Shown: positions 3,025 to 17,436 of the stretch, piece by piece
Layout of the letters: the number at the start of each line of letters is the position of its first letter
How positions within the stretch are numbered: position 1 is the first letter of the stretch
Virus record (IMG/VR): IMGVR_UViG_3300045999_008439
Location: 1-27,208 of that record
Reading direction: 5' to 3' (one strand)
DNA from: a virus
Length of the DNA stretch: 27,208 nucleotides
Translations under genes and position numbers: made by a program
The notes under the pieces: generated by a model
Databases searched by the model: none
What the model was told of the DNA's origin: nothing
The model's input: only the letters and a program-made list of their open reading frames with translations

Positions 3025-4132
3025 TGCGCACCGCTTCCGTCTTTTTGTCGGTGGTCGTGGCAGCGGTAAGACGAGAGCCGGTGCGGTGGAGGTGCTCCGT
3101 CAACCGCCGGGTACGACGTCGCTCATCATCGCACCAACGTATCCCATGCTCAGACTCGGTGCTATGGAAACCATCCTCGCACTAGTCGCACAGATGGGGG
3201 TGGCGGTATCATGGAACAAGTCGGACATGGAGCTGAAATTGCTGGGCGACCGTCGCATCATCTTCCGCAGTGCTGACAACCCCGACCGACTGCGTGGCGC
3301 CAACGTCGGCTTTTTGTGGCTGGATGAGGCGGCGCTGATGAATGAAGAGATATGGCCCATCGCCATCGCCACGCTTCGGCATCGTCCCGGTCGTGCCATT
3401 GCAACGACCACGCCACGGGGCAAGAATTGGCTCTACACATTGTGGATAGACGGTGGAGAGGACTACAGCATCATTGAGAGCGCAACGACGGACAACACGT
3501 ATCTACCAGCGCACTTCGTGGCCACGCTCAAGCAGAGCATGACCTCGGAGATGTATGCGCAGGAGGTGCAGGGCCGCTTCATCGATCCGCTTGGCTCGCT
3601 GTTCCAGCGTCATTGGTTCAGTGTCGTGCCCACTGCACCGCAGGGCCTCGCATGGTCACGGTACTGGGACCTCGCCGCCTCGACCAAGCAAAGCGCCGAC
3701 TACAGTGCATCAGTACGATGCGCCATGCATGACGGTGTGCTGTACATCGCCGACGGCATCAAGCTGAAAGCAGAGTGGCCCGATGTCCGCAAAGTGATTG
3801 TCGCCACCGCACTGAACGAGCGTGGTACAGTGCTCGGCATCGAAGAGGCTCTGCATGGCCTTGCCGCTGTGCAGGAACTGCGCCGCATGCCCGAGCTTGC
3901 ATCGACCACGCTGCGCGGCATCAAGGTGGACAGAGACAAGACCAGCCGCGCCATGCCATGGGCGGCGCGTGCCGAAGCAGGGGCGGTGCGCATCGTGGCC
4001 GGAAGCTGGGTCAAAGATTTTATTGACGAAGTGGTGTCGTTCCCGAGCGCACCACATGACGACTACGTGGACGCCGCAAGCGGTGCCGTGGCGATGGTCG
4101 CACGGCCCACAGTGAAATGGGGTTTCGTATGA
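2918..4132 (+). CDS. Terminase large subunit (packaging ATPase/nuclease)
   Basis: The 404-aa protein has Walker A GGRGSGKT (45-52), Walker B-type FLWLDEA in the middle of the ATPase domain, and TTTPRGKNW after it. The C-terminal RNase H-like nuclease carries RYWDLAAST and PHDDYVDA acidic metal-binding motifs. It is the motor that translocates DNA into the prohead and cuts it. I chose the ATG at 2918, which overlaps TerS out of frame. The only plausible later start is the GTG at 2978, and it has no ribosome binding site. The length is on the short side for the family but both domains are present. Confidence 0.95.
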   Translation: MSTTPQFPPTTSLTSPSPLTVKHTTQTPPQRRFWSDAHRFRLFVGGRGSGKTRAGAVEVLRQPPGTTSLIIAPTYPMLRLGAMETILALVAQMGVAVSWNKSDMELKLLGDRRIIFRSADNPDRLRGANVGFLWLDEAALMNEEIWPIAIATLRHRPGRAIATTTPRGKNWLYTLWIDGGEDYSIIESATTDNTYLPAHFVATLKQSMTSEMYAQEVQGRFIDPLGSLFQRHWFSVVPTAPQGLAWSRYWDLAASTKQSADYSASVRCAMHDGVLYIADGIKLKAEWPDVRKVIVATALNERGTVLGIEEALHGLAAVQELRRMPELASTTLRGIKVDRDKTSRAMPWAARAEAGAVRIVAGSWVKDFIDEVVSFPSAPHDDYVDAASGAVAMVARPTVKWGFV

Positions 4133-6168
4133 CACTACAGTGGCTCAACCGTGTTGAGCATGGCGACAAGCTGGGCACGACATCGCAGGCATATAGCTGG
4201 GTGCCAGCCCTGCACCGCGCGGTCAACCTTCGAGCAAGTGCACTTGGCACCGTGCCAGCTCAGCTTTACCGAGGGGACAACGAGGTCGATTGGCCATTTC
4301 GGCAGGAGCTTGGTCAGTTAATGCAGGACACCGAGCGTAGTCTTCTACTCTACGGTGCGGCGTATTGGCTGCGTCTCTACCGTGGCCGAACATTGGTTGG
4401 ATTTCGTGTACTCAATCCGCGCTTCATGAGCGTACAGCCCAACCTCCGTGCCAGCGTCGCCGACCCATATGACGGCGCGCGCTTTCTATGGGGCGACGGA
4501 TCGACCACGCTTGCAGAGTGGAGCCTTGAGGACATCGTGTACTTCCGTGAGCCCAGCATTGATAGCGACGTCCTGCCCGGCATCCCACCGGCACGCGTCG
4601 CACTGCAGAGTGCACAGCTTGCGCACTACCTCGACCGATTTGCCAGCGTCTTTTTTGAGAGCGGAGCACAGCCGGTGACACTGATGCAGTTGCCCGACTA
4701 TCTTGGTGACAGCGAGTACGACCGCATCAAGGCGGAAACCAACGGGCTTTTTTCCGTAGTCAATAAAGCCTGGCGCTGGATGATTCTGCGAGCACAGGAT
4801 ATCAAGGTGACCAAAATCACCCCCGACATCAACTCGATGATGATGCCGGAGCTTGCCCAGCGTGCACTGACGGACATCTGTATGACCATGGGTGTGCCCC
4901 GTACCATGCTCGAGGCGAGTGCGGCAAATTACGCTACAGCCGACAGCGACCGGCAGAGCTTTTGGCGGGAAACCATCGTGCCACGACTCAGCACTTACCG
5001 CGCGGTGCTCAATGAACAAATCTTTGAGCCACTCGGCCATGAGCTGTATTTTCAACCCGAGGCCCTCGACGTCCTGCAGACGGATGAGGCGATGCGTGCC
5101 GGGTCACTGCTCCAGCTCGTCCAAGCCGGCGTGCCACTGCGTGGGGCAATGACCATCCTCGGCTACGACATGATCGAGGAGGCGCTTGGACCAGAGCCCG
5201 TAGCAGAGCCGACGCCACCGGCACTGCCGCCACCGCCGCCATCAGAGCCAACACCACCGGCATTGCCTGACCCTGCCACCGATGCGCCAAGCGATGCGGC
5301 GGCCATGCGCTCTGCCGAGTTTGAGCTTCTCGCCAAAAAGTTAGAGCGACGCATCAAAGCGGGGAAGTCTTTGCACTGCAGTTTCAAAAGCGACGTGCTG
5401 AGCGATGACGACATTGCCAGCGTGATGGAGCGGCTCAGCGACGGCATGAGCGTGGCCGATGTGCGCACGGTGGTCGACGCAGTCAAAGCGGAGGACCTCA
5501 CCCCAGAGGAAAAAAGCATTTTTGACCGCCTCATCGGGCCACTCACCGCACGGGGTGAGCGCTGGGCACGGCGTATCATGCGAGGCGAGGATATCAGCGA
5601 CGCCGAGGGTAAGGTCAGCGACATCACCGCCCCCGTACTCAGCGATGAGCTAGGCAGGGTGATGGGCGGACGCATCGACCGACTAGGCCGACAGTTTCAA
5701 CCCATCGACCCGACTGAGGCCAGCGACATCGTACAAGATTGGCTTTTCGAGTATGTGCCCGAACGCAATCGACAGCTGGATGCGTCGACCATCTCTGTAC
5801 TCAAGCGCGCCATCGCCGCCTACCGCACCACGCCAGGCATGACCATACAGGACGTGATGCGCAAAGTTGCTCCAGCGACGGATCGGGCTCGTGCTCGGAG
5901 CATCGCTATCACCGAGGTGACCCGTGCAGCGGCGCAGGCTGAAGTGGATTATCAGACCTACCTCGCAGGCAAGGGCATCATGATGGAGCGCACGTGGATT
6001 ACCAACGTTGACGAAAAAGTGTGTCCGACGTGTGGACCACTGCACAACCTCGTCGAGGACGAAGTCACCTCCACGTATCCGCAGGGCTGGGTGATGGAGT
6101 ATCCCGAGGGTCCACCAGCGCATACTAACTGCCGATGCAGTACCGCACTCACGGTGGTGCGCCGATGA
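4129..6168 (+). CDS. Portal protein fused to a C-terminal MuF-like head morphogenesis domain
   Basis: The start at 4129 overlaps the TerL stop (ATGA); an in-frame ATG at 4117 is an alternative. Residues about 1-365 are an HK97-type portal (WVPALHRAVNLRASALG; MGVPRTMLEAS; TDSDRQSFWRETI-type region). A proline-rich linker (about 365-395) follows. The C-terminal part ends in a MuF signature: ARSIAITEVTRAAAQAE, then CPTC (632-635), PPAHTNCRC (H665, C668, C670), which probably binds zinc. The portal ring is the DNA entry channel. MuF domains are packaged or act in capsid assembly. The two are usually separate adjacent genes, so this is a fusion of 679 residues. Confidence 0.93.
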   Translation: MTLQWLNRVEHGDKLGTTSQAYSWVPALHRAVNLRASALGTVPAQLYRGDNEVDWPFRQELGQLMQDTERSLLLYGAAYWLRLYRGRTLVGFRVLNPRFMSVQPNLRASVADPYDGARFLWGDGSTTLAEWSLEDIVYFREPSIDSDVLPGIPPARVALQSAQLAHYLDRFASVFFESGAQPVTLMQLPDYLGDSEYDRIKAETNGLFSVVNKAWRWMILRAQDIKVTKITPDINSMMMPELAQRALTDICMTMGVPRTMLEASAANYATADSDRQSFWRETIVPRLSTYRAVLNEQIFEPLGHELYFQPEALDVLQTDEAMRAGSLLQLVQAGVPLRGAMTILGYDMIEEALGPEPVAEPTPPALPPPPPSEPTPPALPDPATDAPSDAAAMRSAEFELLAKKLERRIKAGKSLHCSFKSDVLSDDDIASVMERLSDGMSVADVRTVVDAVKAEDLTPEEKSIFDRLIGPLTARGERWARRIMRGEDISDAEGKVSDITAPVLSDELGRVMGGRIDRLGRQFQPIDPTEASDIVQDWLFEYVPERNRQLDASTISVLKRAIAAYRTTPGMTIQDVMRKVAPATDRARARSIAITEVTRAAAQAEVDYQTYLAGKGIMMERTWITNVDEKVCPTCGPLHNLVEDEVTSTYPQGWVMEYPEGPPAHTNCRCSTALTVVRR

Positions 6169-6632: not shown

Positions 6633-8680
6633 CGACCAAAGCCGAAACCGATACCCACACCCCGCCGCAAGCCGTGGCCGACAATGCCCGCCTTGCGCTC
6701 GAAGTGCGAGCAGAGAAGCCACCGTCACAGCGGGGCATGACCCCAGTCGGTATTGCTCGAGCACGGCAGTTGGCCAATCGTCAGCCGGTGAGCGTGGCCA
6801 CACTCCGGCGCATGGCCAGCTACTTTGCTCGCCATGAGGTGGACAAGCGGGGGGCGACGTGGGACGAGCAAGGGCCGGGCTGGCAGGCATGGATGGGCTG
6901 GGGTGGTGACGAGGGCTGGGCATGGGCTCGGCGCATCATCGAATCGGAAGACACGAAGGCATTTGACGACCCCCATATAATGGAAGTAGGAGGGAGATTA
7001 CCGATGGATTACAAGGTAAAATCGAGCGGCTACGCCGTGAAGTTTGTTGAAGACGGGGAAGCGGCGCTTGTGCGAGGTAAGGGCATTGTTTTCGGCGGTG
7101 CAGACCTCGAAGACGACTACTTTACCCGGGAAACTGACTTTGGCGAAACCCGGCCATTCGAGGGCATGCCGGTCTACTACGACCATGCCCGGCGCAGCCT
7201 CAAGTCACAAATCGGCGTCGTCAAGTCGTGGATGCCGGGCGACGAAGGCATCGACGTGGAAATCGAGCTCGACCGCAGTCATCAGTACTACGAGATGATC
7301 GCCGAGCTCGTCCGCACGGGACGTATGGGACTGAGCACGGGAAGCCTTCCGCAAACCTATGCCCGCATGAGCGATGGCGAGATCAAGCGCTGGATAGTCG
7401 GCGAAATTAGCCTCACCATGACCCCAGCCGAGCCCCGCACCATCGGGGTGGCGGCCAAGAGCACCGAAGTCACGAGCACAGAGGACACCGCGCCGAGCGA
7501 TGCTGGCACCGTGTCAGAGCCTGACGATACAGAGACCGACCACACACACACAGAGGATGATATGCCACACGACATTGACCAGATTATCGCCGCCGCCGCT
7601 GAGCAGGCCGCCGAGAAAGCCTACGCACGGGCACAGAAAGAAATCGGCGACCACGCCGAGGGCGGCATCACCGCCAAGAGTGCGAGTGCACCAGCTGTGC
7701 ATGTGCGCAGTGAAGACCAGAAGCGTGCCGAGCGCTACAAGGCTTGGGACGCGTTTTATCGTAAGGGCGAAAAAGCCGCTGTGCTCGAAGAGCCACAAGA
7801 GCGCACGTTGCCAAGCGGGCAAAAGGCATTGCTTCCCACCACCACTCCTGGTTCGTATCTGCTTGAGCCCGAGTGGGAAACGCAGATTATCGCTAAGCGC
7901 AACCAAGATTCATTGCTTGGCGTGTTCCCCATCACCCGTCGCACCATCGGCACGGACAAGTACGACCTCCGCTCTGAGAGCACCCGTGTCACGCTGGCGC
8001 CGCTCACTCCTGGCAGTGAGTTCCCCGACCAGACTCCGGGCATGACAGCACGACAGGTCGCCATCTATGATATGGCCATGCAGGTGCGGGTCAACAAACG
8101 CGTCCTCGCCGACACCGCCTTCGATTTGCTCGGCTTCATGAACGAGATCATCGCCGGCGCCTACATCGATAGCGTCAACAAGTACCTCACTATCGGCACC
8201 GGTAGCTCACAGCCCTACGGCGTGATTACTCGTGGCACGGCGTTCAACCTCGCTGGTGCATCGGCTATCACCGTGGGCGAAGTCAAGGGGATGTACTACA
8301 GCATCAAGCCGCAGTACCGCCGCCCCGGCGAAGTCGGCTGGGCCATGAACACCGACACCCTCAGCGCTATCCGCTCACTCACCGTCGCCAACGAATTTGC
8401 CTACGCTGAGACCCCAGGTGGACGACAGGAAGAGACCATGGAGTCACTGCTGCGTCGCCCCGTCTTCGAGTCGCCAGACATGGCCGATCTTGGCACGACT
8501 AACAAACCCGTCGTTTTCGGCAACTGGCGCTATCTCTACTTCGTCGAGAATCAGGGCATCAGCGTAGTCCGCGATGAAAGCAACCGCGCCAACTACAACG
8601 AGACGGTCTTTTTCGTCACCGCTCGCTACGGTTCAGACGTTGCGCAGGACGAGGCCTTCGCCGTCGCCGTCAACGCCTAA
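6629..8680 (+). CDS. Prohead protease fused to HK97-fold major capsid protein
   Basis: The single 683-aa frame has four parts. Residues about 36-105 are a small Trp-rich module (GMTPVGIARARQLA; ASYFARHEVDK; WMGWGGDEGWAWARRI) common near phage head proteins and of unclear role. Residues about 126-280 are a U35-type prohead protease with MPVYYDH (H186) and GRMGLSTGS (S236) as likely catalytic residues. Residues about 280-350 are an acidic then helical linker resembling a scaffold/delta domain. Residues about 370-683 are the HK97-type capsid domain. In-frame starts with Shine-Dalgarno sequences lie at 7004 (M126) and 7562 (M312) and could give separate protease-capsid and capsid-only products. 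The start overlaps the previous stop (ATGA). Confidence 0.93.
   Translation: MTTKAETDTHTPPQAVADNARLALEVRAEKPPSQRGMTPVGIARARQLANRQPVSVATLRRMASYFARHEVDKRGATWDEQGPGWQAWMGWGGDEGWAWARRIIESEDTKAFDDPHIMEVGGRLPMDYKVKSSGYAVKFVEDGEAALVRGKGIVFGGADLEDDYFTRETDFGETRPFEGMPVYYDHARRSLKSQIGVVKSWMPGDEGIDVEIELDRSHQYYEMIAELVRTGRMGLSTGSLPQTYARMSDGEIKRWIVGEISLTMTPAEPRTIGVAAKSTEVTSTEDTAPSDAGTVSEPDDTETDHTHTEDDMPHDIDQIIAAAAEQAAEKAYARAQKEIGDHAEGGITAKSASAPAVHVRSEDQKRAERYKAWDAFYRKGEKAAVLEEPQERTLPSGQKALLPTTTPGSYLLEPEWETQIIAKRNQDSLLGVFPITRRTIGTDKYDLRSESTRVTLAPLTPGSEFPDQTPGMTARQVAIYDMAMQVRVNKRVLADTAFDLLGFMNEIIAGAYIDSVNKYLTIGTGSSQPYGVITRGTAFNLAGASAITVGEVKGMYYSIKPQYRRPGEVGWAMNTDTLSAIRSLTVANEFAYAETPGGRQEETMESLLRRPVFESPDMADLGTTNKPVVFGNWRYLYFVENQGISVVRDESNRANYNETVFFVTARYGSDVAQDEAFAVAVNA
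6961..6992 (+). promoter_or_regulatory. Internal promoter/RBS-like module within the protease-capsid gene
   Basis: Inside the open frame lies ATTTGACG, a gap, TATAAT (6976-6981), then GGAAGTAGGAGG, followed by an in-frame ATG at 7004 (MDYKVKSSG). Spacing and sequence match the module upstream of the amidase (1629-1660). It separates the Trp-rich N-terminal module from the protease domain. It may be the remains of an intergenic region absorbed by a gene fusion, or a working internal promoter and start. Confidence 0.4.
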
Positions 8681-16042: not shown

Positions 16043-16354
16043 ATGTACTACCGGACATACGACATTGACACGCTGATGACGTTATATATCGACCGCTACG
16101 GCACTGCCTACCCTGATATCGGCGATGCAGACTTCGAGGACGTGCCAAGTGCTGACGAGGCCATGGCCATGGTGCGGGATGAGCGCAAGCGCCGCCTTGA
16201 GCAGTGCGACTGGACGCAGCTCGGCGACGTGCCGCTGTTGCCGGCACAGGTGACACAGTGGCGCATCTACCGCCAAGCGTTGCGCGATATGACGCAGGGC
16301 TTTGCATGGAACGTGACGACGTGGCCAGTGCCACCAAGTGATCCAGATATGTGA
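16043..16354 (+). CDS. Tail fibre assembly/chaperone-like protein (Phage_tail_APC type)
   Basis: The 103-aa protein carries the family pattern near its C-terminus: RDERKRRLEQCDWTQLGDVPL, then WRIYRQALRDMTQGF, and ending TTWPVPPSD. The RxxxLxxCDWTQLxDxxL...WxxYRQALRD...WPxxP motif is common to small proteins encoded at the end of tail-fibre operons and is thought to assist fibre assembly. It is the last gene of the structural block. The next gene starts 578 bases further on. It begins one base after the previous stop. Confidence 0.85.
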   Translation: MYYRTYDIDTLMTLYIDRYGTAYPDIGDADFEDVPSADEAMAMVRDERKRRLEQCDWTQLGDVPLLPAQVTQWRIYRQALRDMTQGFAWNVTTWPVPPSDPDM

Positions 16355-16360
16355 TATACT
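16352..16360 (+). promoter_or_regulatory. Extended -10 promoter P1
   Basis: TGATATACT fits the TGnTATAnT extended -10 pattern at the very end of the structural operon. It is the first of four similar copies (16352, 16453, 16547, 16614). The +1 would fall near 16367, where a GTG lies 6 bases after the hexamer. No good -35 is visible. Confidence 0.45.
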
Positions 16361-16366
16361 ACCAAC

Positions 16367-16451
16367 GTGATTTTGTACCGGTAGGTTACAGCGGTGCAGC
16401 ATCGCGGTGGAGCGAATGGCACTGCAGAGGCGCGCAGTGCCATTCGTTTTT
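16367..16451 (+). ncRNA. Candidate small RNA from P1 to terminator T1
   Basis: If P1 fires at about 16367, the transcript would run roughly 85 bases and end at the 13-bp terminator stem with a TTTTT tail. No convincing reading frame or ribosome binding site lies between. It is an inferred compact RNA unit; equally, the terminator may simply serve the structural operon and P1 may be inactive. Confidence 0.3.
16413..16451 (+). terminator. Rho-independent terminator T1 of the structural operon
   Basis: A perfect 13-bp stem pairs 16413-16425 with 16434-16446 across an 8-base loop, followed directly by TTTTT (16447-16451). It lies about 60 bases after the last tail gene, a natural end for the late transcript. 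The T tract runs into promoter P2. Confidence 0.85.
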
Positions 16452-16452
16452 A

Positions 16453-16461
16453 TGCTATACT
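16453..16461 (+). promoter_or_regulatory. Extended -10 promoter P2
   Basis: TGCTATACT follows the T tract of terminator T1 with one base between. The predicted +1 near 16468 coincides with an ATG. The 11-base context TATGCTATACT is identical at P4 (16612-16622), showing a duplicated promoter unit. Confidence 0.5.
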
Positions 16462-16516
16462 ACATGCATGGCTGACCTTCTTGTTGCGGAACGAATACGC
16501 AGCCACCTATCTCCGC

Positions 16517-16549
16517 CACCGCGCCGCCCAGCATCGGGCGGCGTTGTGG
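16517..16549 (+). other. GC-rich hairpin between P2 and P3
   Basis: The arms 16522-16529 and 16536-16543 form a perfect 8-bp stem (CGCCGCCC/GGGCGGCG) with a 6-base loop. An outer CCAC/GTGG pair (16517-16520 with 16546-16549) extends it. The right edge abuts the -10 of P3. No T tract follows, so it is a structured RNA or DNA element rather than a terminator. Confidence 0.5.
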
Positions 16550-16555
16550 TATACT
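16547..16555 (+). promoter_or_regulatory. Extended -10 promoter P3
   Basis: TGGTATACT matches the extended -10 pattern. The predicted +1 near 16562 is the first base of an 11-bp inverted repeat, so the transcript would begin with a hairpin. As in P1 and P2, an RTG triplet lies exactly 6 bases after the hexamer. Confidence 0.45.
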
Positions 16556-16561
16556 AGTGAC

Positions 16562-16606
16562 GTGCCGAGTTGTCGCACTTCGCTACACATATCTTCAACT
16601 CGGCAC
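16562..16606 (+). other. 11-bp perfect inverted repeat at the P3 transcription start
   Basis: GTGCCGAGTTG (16562-16572) and CAACTCGGCAC (16596-16606) are exact reverse complements around a 23-base loop. The left arm starts where P3 transcription should start, giving an RNA with a sequestered 5' end. It could also be a protein operator overlapping P3. Confidence 0.55.
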
Positions 16607-16613
16607 AAAACTA

Positions 16614-16622
16614 TGCTATACT
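16614..16622 (+). promoter_or_regulatory. Extended -10 promoter P4
   Basis: TGCTATACT in the same TATGCTATACT context as P2. Transcription would start near 16628-16629 and meet the 18-bp stem at 16675-16714 after about 50 bases, so the product would be another short RNA of about 90 bases. Confidence 0.5.
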
Positions 16623-16674
16623 AAATGCGGACATCTGGACCCAAACCCCGAACCTCGATCTCCTCACACGCAGC

Positions 16675-16720
16675 ACACCGAGCCCCTACATATCACTATG
16701 TAGGGGCTCGGTGTTGGTAT
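16675..16720 (+). terminator. Strong 18-bp stem-loop terminator T2
   Basis: Positions 16675-16692 and 16697-16714 are exact reverse complements with a TCAC loop. A T-rich stretch with interruptions (TTGGTATTTT) follows on the + strand. It isolates the promoter array from the early promoter downstream. The opposite direction lacks a T tract. Confidence 0.7.
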
Positions 16721-16743
16721 TTTGGTCGACCCCTGGGCTATAC

Positions 16744-16756
16744 ATCACCTCCTTTC
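16744..16756. other. 13-base match to the 3' end of 16S rRNA (anti-Shine-Dalgarno); perfect SD on the - strand
   Basis: ATCACCTCCTTTC on the + strand equals the conserved 3' end of many bacterial 16S rRNAs (GGATCACCTCCTTTCT). On the - strand it is GAAAGGAGGTGAT, an ideal Shine-Dalgarno, but the ATG there follows GGAGG by only two bases and opens a 19-codon frame. No gene is served by it in either direction. Confidence 0.5.
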
Positions 16757-16805
16757 GGTAGGCAATGCCGCTCAAGATTCACCGCTGTGGGGCGGGATTG
16801 ATACG

Positions 16806-16814
16806 ATTATAGCA
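16806..16814 (-). promoter_or_regulatory. Leftward extended -10 promoter candidate
   Basis: The - strand reads TGCTATAAT, a perfect extended -10. With a 17-base spacer the -35 would be TTCAAC, a weak match. Transcription would run left over the 16S-like element and into the T2 stem. No - strand gene lies in its path, so it could make a short antisense or regulatory RNA. Confidence 0.35.
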
Positions 16815-16831
16815 CGATTCCGAAACTCGTT

Positions 16832-16853
16832 GAAAATTGGTCGAAAATTGGTC
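16832..16853 (+). repeat. Tandem 11-bp direct repeat GAAAATTGGTC x2
   Basis: GAAAATTGGTC occurs at 16832-16842 and 16843-16853 with no gap, one helical turn apart, just upstream of the early promoter -35 and over the -35 region of the leftward promoter. This fits an activator or repressor binding site shared by the two divergent promoters. Confidence 0.5.
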
Positions 16854-16863
16854 AAAAAAGCAC

Positions 16864-16892
16864 TTGACAAGATATCTATATAGATATATACT
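16864..16892 (+). promoter_or_regulatory. Early promoter (near-consensus sigma70 type)
   Basis: TTGACA (16864-16869), a 17-base spacer and TATACT (16887-16892) form a near-consensus vegetative promoter 40 bases before the first early gene; +1 is expected near 16899. It is by far the best -35/-10 pair I see. The spacer contains a palindrome, so repression is likely. Confidence 0.85.
16872..16887. promoter_or_regulatory. Palindromic operator in the early promoter spacer
   Basis: ATATCTATATAGATAT is a perfect 16-bp palindrome lying between -35 and -10. A bound repressor would block RNA polymerase. The phage encodes a ribbon-helix-helix protein (21283-21462), a family that binds short palindromes, and it is the best candidate ligand. 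Confidence 0.5.
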
Positions 16893-16902
16893 ATGTACAT
16901 AA

Positions 16903-16916
16903 GGTTCAGATGAACC
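16903..16916. promoter_or_regulatory. Inverted repeat at the early transcript 5' end
   Basis: GGTTCA-GA-TGAACC is a 6-bp perfect inverted repeat with a 2-base centre, starting about 4 bases after the predicted +1 and ending just before the AAGGAG ribosome binding site of the first early gene. With a loop of only two bases it is more likely a protein site than an RNA hairpin. Confidence 0.4.
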
Positions 16917-16932
16917 GAAGGAGATTGAAGAC

Positions 16933-17436
16933 ATGAGCAAGCACATCATTTCACAGGACACCCCAGTCGCACAGCTCGAGCAGATGGTATACGACGCACT
17001 CACCGAAATCAACGAGAACATGACCAACGTGGCTGAGTGCAATTCCATGGGTGACCTGTACGACATGGTCATGAGCGGGTTTACCGTCTACGACGAGGAC
17101 GTGGTCACGATTGAGATGGTTAAGCGCATTCGTGAAGAGTGGGTGTCGGACATGCAGGAAATCGAGCAATTCGACTCGACCGAAGTCATCGAGACCCCAG
17201 CCGTCGAAGTCGTCGCCGAGCAGGATGAAATCGAACGAGTAAATGCATTGCTGTCACGTGAGACAGTCAAGGCTGTCTGGAGTGAGACGAAGCGCATGGA
17301 TCGCGGCCAGGTGTACGAACTGTACCATGCAACTGTGGATGCATATCGTGGCTACTATGCACTGGGGTGCACTGACGTAGTAGTCGAGGCGCGAATTCGT
17401 GCCATCAAGCAGGTACTGGAAGCCAAGCGAAAGTGA
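16933..17436 (+). CDS. First early gene, acidic hypothetical protein, 167 aa
   Basis: It is preceded by AAGGAGAT at the usual distance and is the first gene after the strong early promoter. The product is helical and acidic in its first two thirds (for example DYDMVMSGFTVYDEDVVTIEM-like acidic clusters and VEVVAEQDEIERV) and becomes basic at the C-terminus (RIRAIKQVLEAKRK). It has no cysteine motif, signal or membrane segment. I do not recognise it. First-position early genes in phages often encode host-takeover or anti-defence proteins, but nothing in the sequence proves this. Confidence 0.82.
   Translation: MSKHIISQDTPVAQLEQMVYDALTEINENMTNVAECNSMGDLYDMVMSGFTVYDEDVVTIEMVKRIREEWVSDMQEIEQFDSTEVIETPAVEVVAEQDEIERVNALLSRETVKAVWSETKRMDRGQVYELYHATVDAYRGYYALGCTDVVVEARIRAIKQVLEAKRK

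Follow-up and report, generated by a model that had tools for sequence, protein, structure and literature searches.

Between its late and its early genes, the window (the whole stretch of DNA analysed here, a virus record of 27,208 bases from an uncultured tailed phage) carries a row of promoter-like sites and hairpins that is probably a modular array of phage small-RNA transcription units, most likely acting in trans and, as we assume, with promoters recognised by the host. At the level of sequence, the sites, their predicted folds, the conservation of the architecture, the differences by whole units among relatives and the absence of conserved coding are established; promoter firing, RNA ends, RNA stability and the role in trans are what we infer for the predicted RNAs. 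Phage small-RNA genes are of a known kind, and the novelty would lie in the modular and recombining array.

Promoter-like sites and hairpins at the junction of late and early genes

The genes for terminase, portal, head, tape-measure and tail proteins run rightward up to 16354, and another block in the same direction, which includes a primase/helicase-like gene and a D5-like gene, begins at 16933. The head and portal proteins have distant matches only, bacterial genomes yielded no relative for the minor tail protein and the window DNA gave no match to phage records. The motif TGnTATACT occurs four times, at 16352, 16453, 16547 and 16614 as the original prediction had placed it, and nowhere else in the window on either strand, against 0.27 occurrences expected for 27 kb and both strands; none of 100 shuffles reached four, and the three occurrences within 16355-16932 compare with a maximum of one in 2,000 shuffles. 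All four sites (P1 to P4) have the form of an extended -10 promoter, that is TGn before a TATAAT-like hexamer with no -35 needed, and the earlier remark that none has a good -35 agrees with a sigma-70 scan that passed no -35 at P1-P4 and whose sole plus-strand match between 14000 and 19000 was the early promoter at 16864-16892, the hexamer of which is the same TATACT. The sites read TGATATACT at 16352, TGCTATACT at both 16453 and 16614, and TGGTATACT at 16547. The features of the region are the following.

16043..16354, plus strand: last late gene, tail-fibre assembly-like (PHROGs match); its stop codon TGA lies within P1
16352..16360, plus strand: P1, extended -10 TGATATACT, predicted +1 at 16367 (from the sequence)
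16367..16451, plus strand: R1, predicted small RNA of ~85 nt from P1 to T1 (fold z = -7.2; RNA inferred)
16413..16451, plus strand: T1, intrinsic terminator, 13-bp core stem and TTTTT (sequence, scan and fold)
16453..16461, plus strand: P2, extended -10 TGCTATACT, predicted +1 at 16468 (identical in the relative L008)
16522..16543, plus strand: 8-bp GC hairpin after P2, without U-tract (identical in L008)
16547..16555, plus strand: P3, extended -10 TGGTATACT, predicted +1 at 16562 (identical in L008)
16562..16606, plus strand: 11-bp stem from the P3 +1, with a 23-nt loop (fold; pair kept in one relative)
16614..16622, plus strand: P4, extended -10 TGCTATACT, predicted +1 at 16629 (identical in L008)
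16675..16724, plus strand: T2, terminator-like 18-bp hairpin with a weak T-run (scan and fold; hairpin identical in L008)
16864..16892, plus strand: early promoter TTGACA-17-TATACT (scan; present in L011 and L012 too)
16933..17436, plus strand: first early gene, of unknown function (sequence and family searches)

The spacing of the four promoters is irregular (101, 94 and 67 bp). P2 and P4 do have a sequence in common, as had been proposed, which we restate as the 17 bases TATGCTATACTAMATGC, and the RTG triplet reported exactly six bases after the hexamer is found as GTG at P1, ATG at P2 and GTG at P3, P4 having none. The four hairpins described earlier are likewise present: T1, with a 13-bp core (arms 16413-16425 and 16434-16446) and then TTTTT; an 8-bp GC stem (arms 16522-16529 and 16536-16543); an 11-bp stem (arms 16562-16572 and 16596-16606) whose first base is the predicted +1 of P3; and T2, an 18-bp stem at 16675-16714 followed by the weak T-run TGGTATTTT. 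Compared with dinucleotide shuffles, the four spacers gave fold z-scores of -7.2, -3.0, -6.2 and -6.3.

A terminator scan picked T1 and T2, both with a GC-rich stem and a U-tract, that of T2 being weak. A U-tract was also sought after both middle hairpins and not found there, the bases being GTTGTGG past the P2 hairpin and AAAACTATG past the P3 hairpin. Because these two hairpins have no U-tract, the RNAs from P2, P3 and P4 would probably be nested, with a single 3' end at T2, and because P1 alone directly precedes a terminator, the array does not make four equally terminated RNAs. The original idea of a promoter-hairpin unit holds in that the unit is repeated and apparently non-coding, but only T1 and T2 are terminator-like. 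R1 is predicted to fold into a 5' hairpin with T1 at its 3' end, and P1, R1 and T1 together have the make-up of a small-RNA gene (own promoter and terminator, non-coding structured sequence); downstream of P4, a largely unpaired stretch precedes T2.

We propose that host RNA polymerase would start at the extended -10 promoters, with transcripts beginning at the seventh base past TATACT. Since a -35 is dispensable for such promoters, the -35 region of one promoter can be occupied by the 3' arm of the hairpin before it. The P1 RNA, of ~85 nt, would stop at T1, and the three others, from P2, P3 and P4, would probably share the 3' end at T2, with predicted lengths of ~255, ~160 and ~95 nt. In bacteria, 5' stems and 3' terminator hairpins stabilise RNA, and the transcripts, which would have both, should be stable. 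Their most likely role during infection would be to base-pair with RNAs of the host or the phage, or to titrate such RNAs or RNA-binding factors. T1 and T2 would additionally part late from early transcription.

Searches for known families and targets gave the following. At the Rfam gathering score there was no match in the window, and eleven other loci gave tRNAs only; the window contains neither tRNA nor tmRNA. The single-stranded segments of the predicted RNAs pair no better than shuffles with the start regions or with the phage's own genome as antisense targets. The sequence ATCACCTCCTTTC just past T2, which resembles the end of 16S rRNA, was considered as an anti-Shine-Dalgarno mimic and rejected, being altered in the close relative L008.

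Unit number in related phages

Protein searches retrieved relatives that form a small family of uncultured phages. The array holds a constant position in all of them, downstream of the tail genes and, in contigs that are long enough, upstream of a TTGACA-type promoter, and at least one strong terminator is present at the site in every relative; in the window too, the array follows the last tail gene and precedes the early promoter, at the junction of late and early transcription already recognised in the original prediction. One contig (L007/L032) has the same four promoters as the window. L008, the minor tail protein of which matches at 99%, has three promoters and cleanly lacks the P1-T1 unit, the junction falling inside TATACTAC, which is common to P1 and P2. 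L009-L012 (~80%) have two promoters and two strong terminators of differing sequence, and L013-L015 (~57%) a single promoter, whose TATAAT shares bases with the stop codon of the late gene before it, plus one strong terminator. L035 (67%) has three promoters, one additional 93-bp unit lying between two copies of the 16-nt promoter repeat TGTGATATACTGAGAG; the RNA of this unit is predicted to form a hairpin at its 5' end and a terminator, joined by an 8-nt linker, and the 190 bases that begin with the second TGTGATATACTGAGAG copy are identical to L010. Comparison with L008 and L035 thus shows that units come and go as wholes, at the repeated promoter cores. Conservation in related genomes had been put forward as a check, and it is the architecture that is kept rather than the sequence, the promoter spacing varying since the unit number varies.

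Between the window and L008, the array (16462-16720) shows 9 changes over 259 bases; the spacer just past T2, with 16 over 149, has diverged more. No change is seen in the three promoter cores compared, in the GC hairpin or in T2, and the single change in the P3 stem, from A-U to G-U, retains the pair; the bases directly past the P4 hexamer are altered. The distinct relatives are few, and covariation within the window's own family is thin.

Some other observations were made in the same phage family. L008 and L018 are the same 29,472-base contig, with the minor tail gene apparently whole at one end and partial at the other, which suggests a circular or circularly permuted genome. On the minus strand, between T2 and the early promoter, TGCTATAAT lies at 16806-16814 and is kept in L008, and TGGTATCAT lies at about that position in L009, L011 and L012; the minus-strand TGCTATAAT could be a source of RNA antisense to the array. 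The early mRNA leader (16899-16935) has a small hairpin near its +1 (GGTTC/GAACC), which is kept with changed sequence as GGTTAAG/CTTAACC in L011 and GGTTGAA/TTCAACC in L012.

Arrays of the same design in other phages

IMG/VR was searched by pattern scans for tandem TGnTATACT and then with a promoter-plus-terminator chain finder. The matches listed amount to 2.0 Mb of viral loci and include overlapping or related records. We counted among them at least 25 chains of two or more units, at least 15 of which had three or more, whereas the reversed or complemented motif gave no chain among them. A nearly identical pattern retrieved 67 loci from 84,980 bacterial and archaeal species genomes, with no chain under the same criteria; the viral loci having been preselected for paired promoters, it is this contrast with bacterial loci and control motifs that is informative and not the raw viral count. 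A triple-promoter scan returned mostly repeats within coding DNA, which we did not consider further.

Temperate phages of Lacticaseibacillus carry such arrays, with 45 phage records of similar DNA, and a second group of arrays is found in loci slightly similar to Lactobacillus phage phig1e; one locus (L213) has five units and another (L129) four. The arrays located in named phages are listed here.

Lrm1 array (L224), 4090-4290: opposite to an arpU/DUF1492-type gene; unannotated
iLp84 array (L225), 3091-3490: opposite to an arpU/DUF1492-type gene; unannotated
R3.1 array (L226), 3091-3430: opposite to an arpU/DUF1492-type gene; unannotated

These three have two to four promoter-stem-terminator units each, and the Lacticaseibacillus arrays overall two to five, placed between the arpU/DUF1492-type gene and its neighbour and on the strand opposite to both. 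Their longer units consist of TATACT, six bases, a 5' stem such as GGAGGCC/GGCCTCC, a loop of ~40 nt and a terminator, which is the layout of the P3 hairpin of the window and of the extra unit of L035. Alternative stems (GGAGATGCTT/AAGCATCTCC, GGAGGCAG/CTGCCTCC and GAAGATGG/CTGTCTTC) preserve pairing through two-sided changes, and a few units have one stem mismatch. The resemblance between the window array and those of other phages is possibly due to convergence, and no common ancestry is claimed.

Variants of the design were also seen. In L087, an unrelated phage with terminase and portal genes on the strand opposite to the array, at least six tandem TGnTATACT alternate with hairpins at 7640-8300, several with U-tracts. 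On the reverse strand of L093 (6840-7130), three extended -10 promoters are each followed by a hairpin without U-tract, a common YTCACTTYY-like stretch standing in its place. Two Lacticaseibacillus-group phages, L166 (7355-7560) and L201 (reverse strand, 897-1125), have a second, shorter promoter-terminator chain.

Alternative explanations and known systems

The main rival to a set of trans-acting RNAs is that the array only punctuates transcription, T1 and T2 halting late transcription while the promoters give short throw-away transcripts or a polymerase road-block and the sequence of the RNA is irrelevant. In its favour are the position precisely at the boundary of late and early genes, the one or more strong terminators that each relative has at this place, the variation of the RNA sequences among relatives and the failure to find a target within the phage genome itself. 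This explanation nevertheless leaves up to four promoters and the stems at the +1 unaccounted for, as well as the opposite-strand arrays of the Lacticaseibacillus phages, and we regard it as rather unlikely, favouring a role in trans over mere punctuation. Less likely again is regulated read-through in the manner of lambda pR'-tR' or HK022 put, in which constitutive promoters would yield short terminated RNAs until a factor or the 5' hairpins let polymerase past T2 into the early genes: a promoter followed by a close terminator, hairpins at the 5' end and early genes downstream on the same strand would all suit it, but those genes have their own strong promoter past T2, unit number and hairpin sequence vary freely, and the family searches run on the window recognised no antiterminator, all of which makes it improbable.

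We are still more sceptical of a reading at the DNA level, with the core recognised by a phage protein as binding sites, an origin or a packaging element. Direct repeats in non-coding phage DNA could be of this kind, yet the core is a textbook extended -10 whose hexamer is that of the early promoter, the spacing is irregular and the unit number varies among close relatives; for the repeated binding sites of a phage factor offered in the original prediction, we found no evidence pointing that way. The RTG at the +1 could also be the start codon of leaderless mini-genes, one short peptide per unit. It lies exactly at the +1 in three of the four window promoters (P1-P3) and recurs in both promoters of L009-L012, as GTG six bases past the hexamer. 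However, the P1 frame has only five codons and P4 has no RTG, and relatives differ by one-base indels in the P2 unit and in the second unit of L011 and by a four-base indel in the first unit (L009/L011 versus L010/L012). As these one- and four-base indels break long frames, no conserved gene begins at the RTG; the non-triplet indels in the three units tested speak against leaderless mini-ORFs, which we rejected, and mini-genes appear very improbable overall.

Phage small RNAs have usually been found singly and in cultured phages. With a recognisable grammar (TGnTATACT, six bases, stem, terminator, next TGnTATACT), small RNAs would become findable from sequence alone, in uncultured phages included. 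The gain and loss of whole units suggests changing selection on the RNAs themselves, the targets of which are a testable question, and the hosts of the Lacticaseibacillus phages with arrays are named, which allows a direct check of RNA production. A bolder proposal, which we hold to be doubtful, is that several unrelated phage groups carry exchangeable small-RNA gene cassettes (extended -10 promoter, 5' stem-loop and terminator) that recombine at the promoter core and have a fast-changing RNA payload, for example decoys directed against RNA-based control or defence of the host; if true, these would be an RNA counterpart of anti-defence gene islands.

Several known systems can be compared with the array. 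Lambda pR'-tR' (6S RNA) is a factor-independent promoter with a terminator close behind, giving a short RNA, and is like the window in this close succession; it is a single unit ahead of late genes under Q control, whereas the window has four units and an early operon with its own promoter. C4 of P1 and P4 is a short structured phage RNA antisense to transcripts of its own phage, unlike the window array, which has no own-genome target found and no Rfam match. The AgvB anti-sRNA and RNA anti-CRISPRs are decoys from mobile elements, small structured RNAs that titrate host RNA or protein; the window RNAs differ in that a mimicked host RNA was identified for none of them. PAK_P3 sRNA1 and sRNA2 and T4 band C and D are small non-coding RNAs of lytic phages, of unknown function, and are single and not described as promoter-hairpin arrays in the passages searched of the PAK_P3 study (PMC4933390); neither these passages nor those searched of a 2025 review of phage small RNAs (PMC12197685) mention such arrays. 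The original prediction knew of no named phage element with this design, and no Rfam match or publication was indeed found, which is weak evidence as the search covered open-access papers only, but the design itself is also present in other phages. The Lacticaseibacillus arrays (Lrm1, iLp84 and R3.1) are unlike the window in that no sequence similarity was found, an opposite-strand arpU/DUF1492-type gene adjoins them and nearly every unit has its own terminator; they are like it in their succession of TGnTATACT, six bases, a 5' stem-loop and a terminator that abuts the next promoter.
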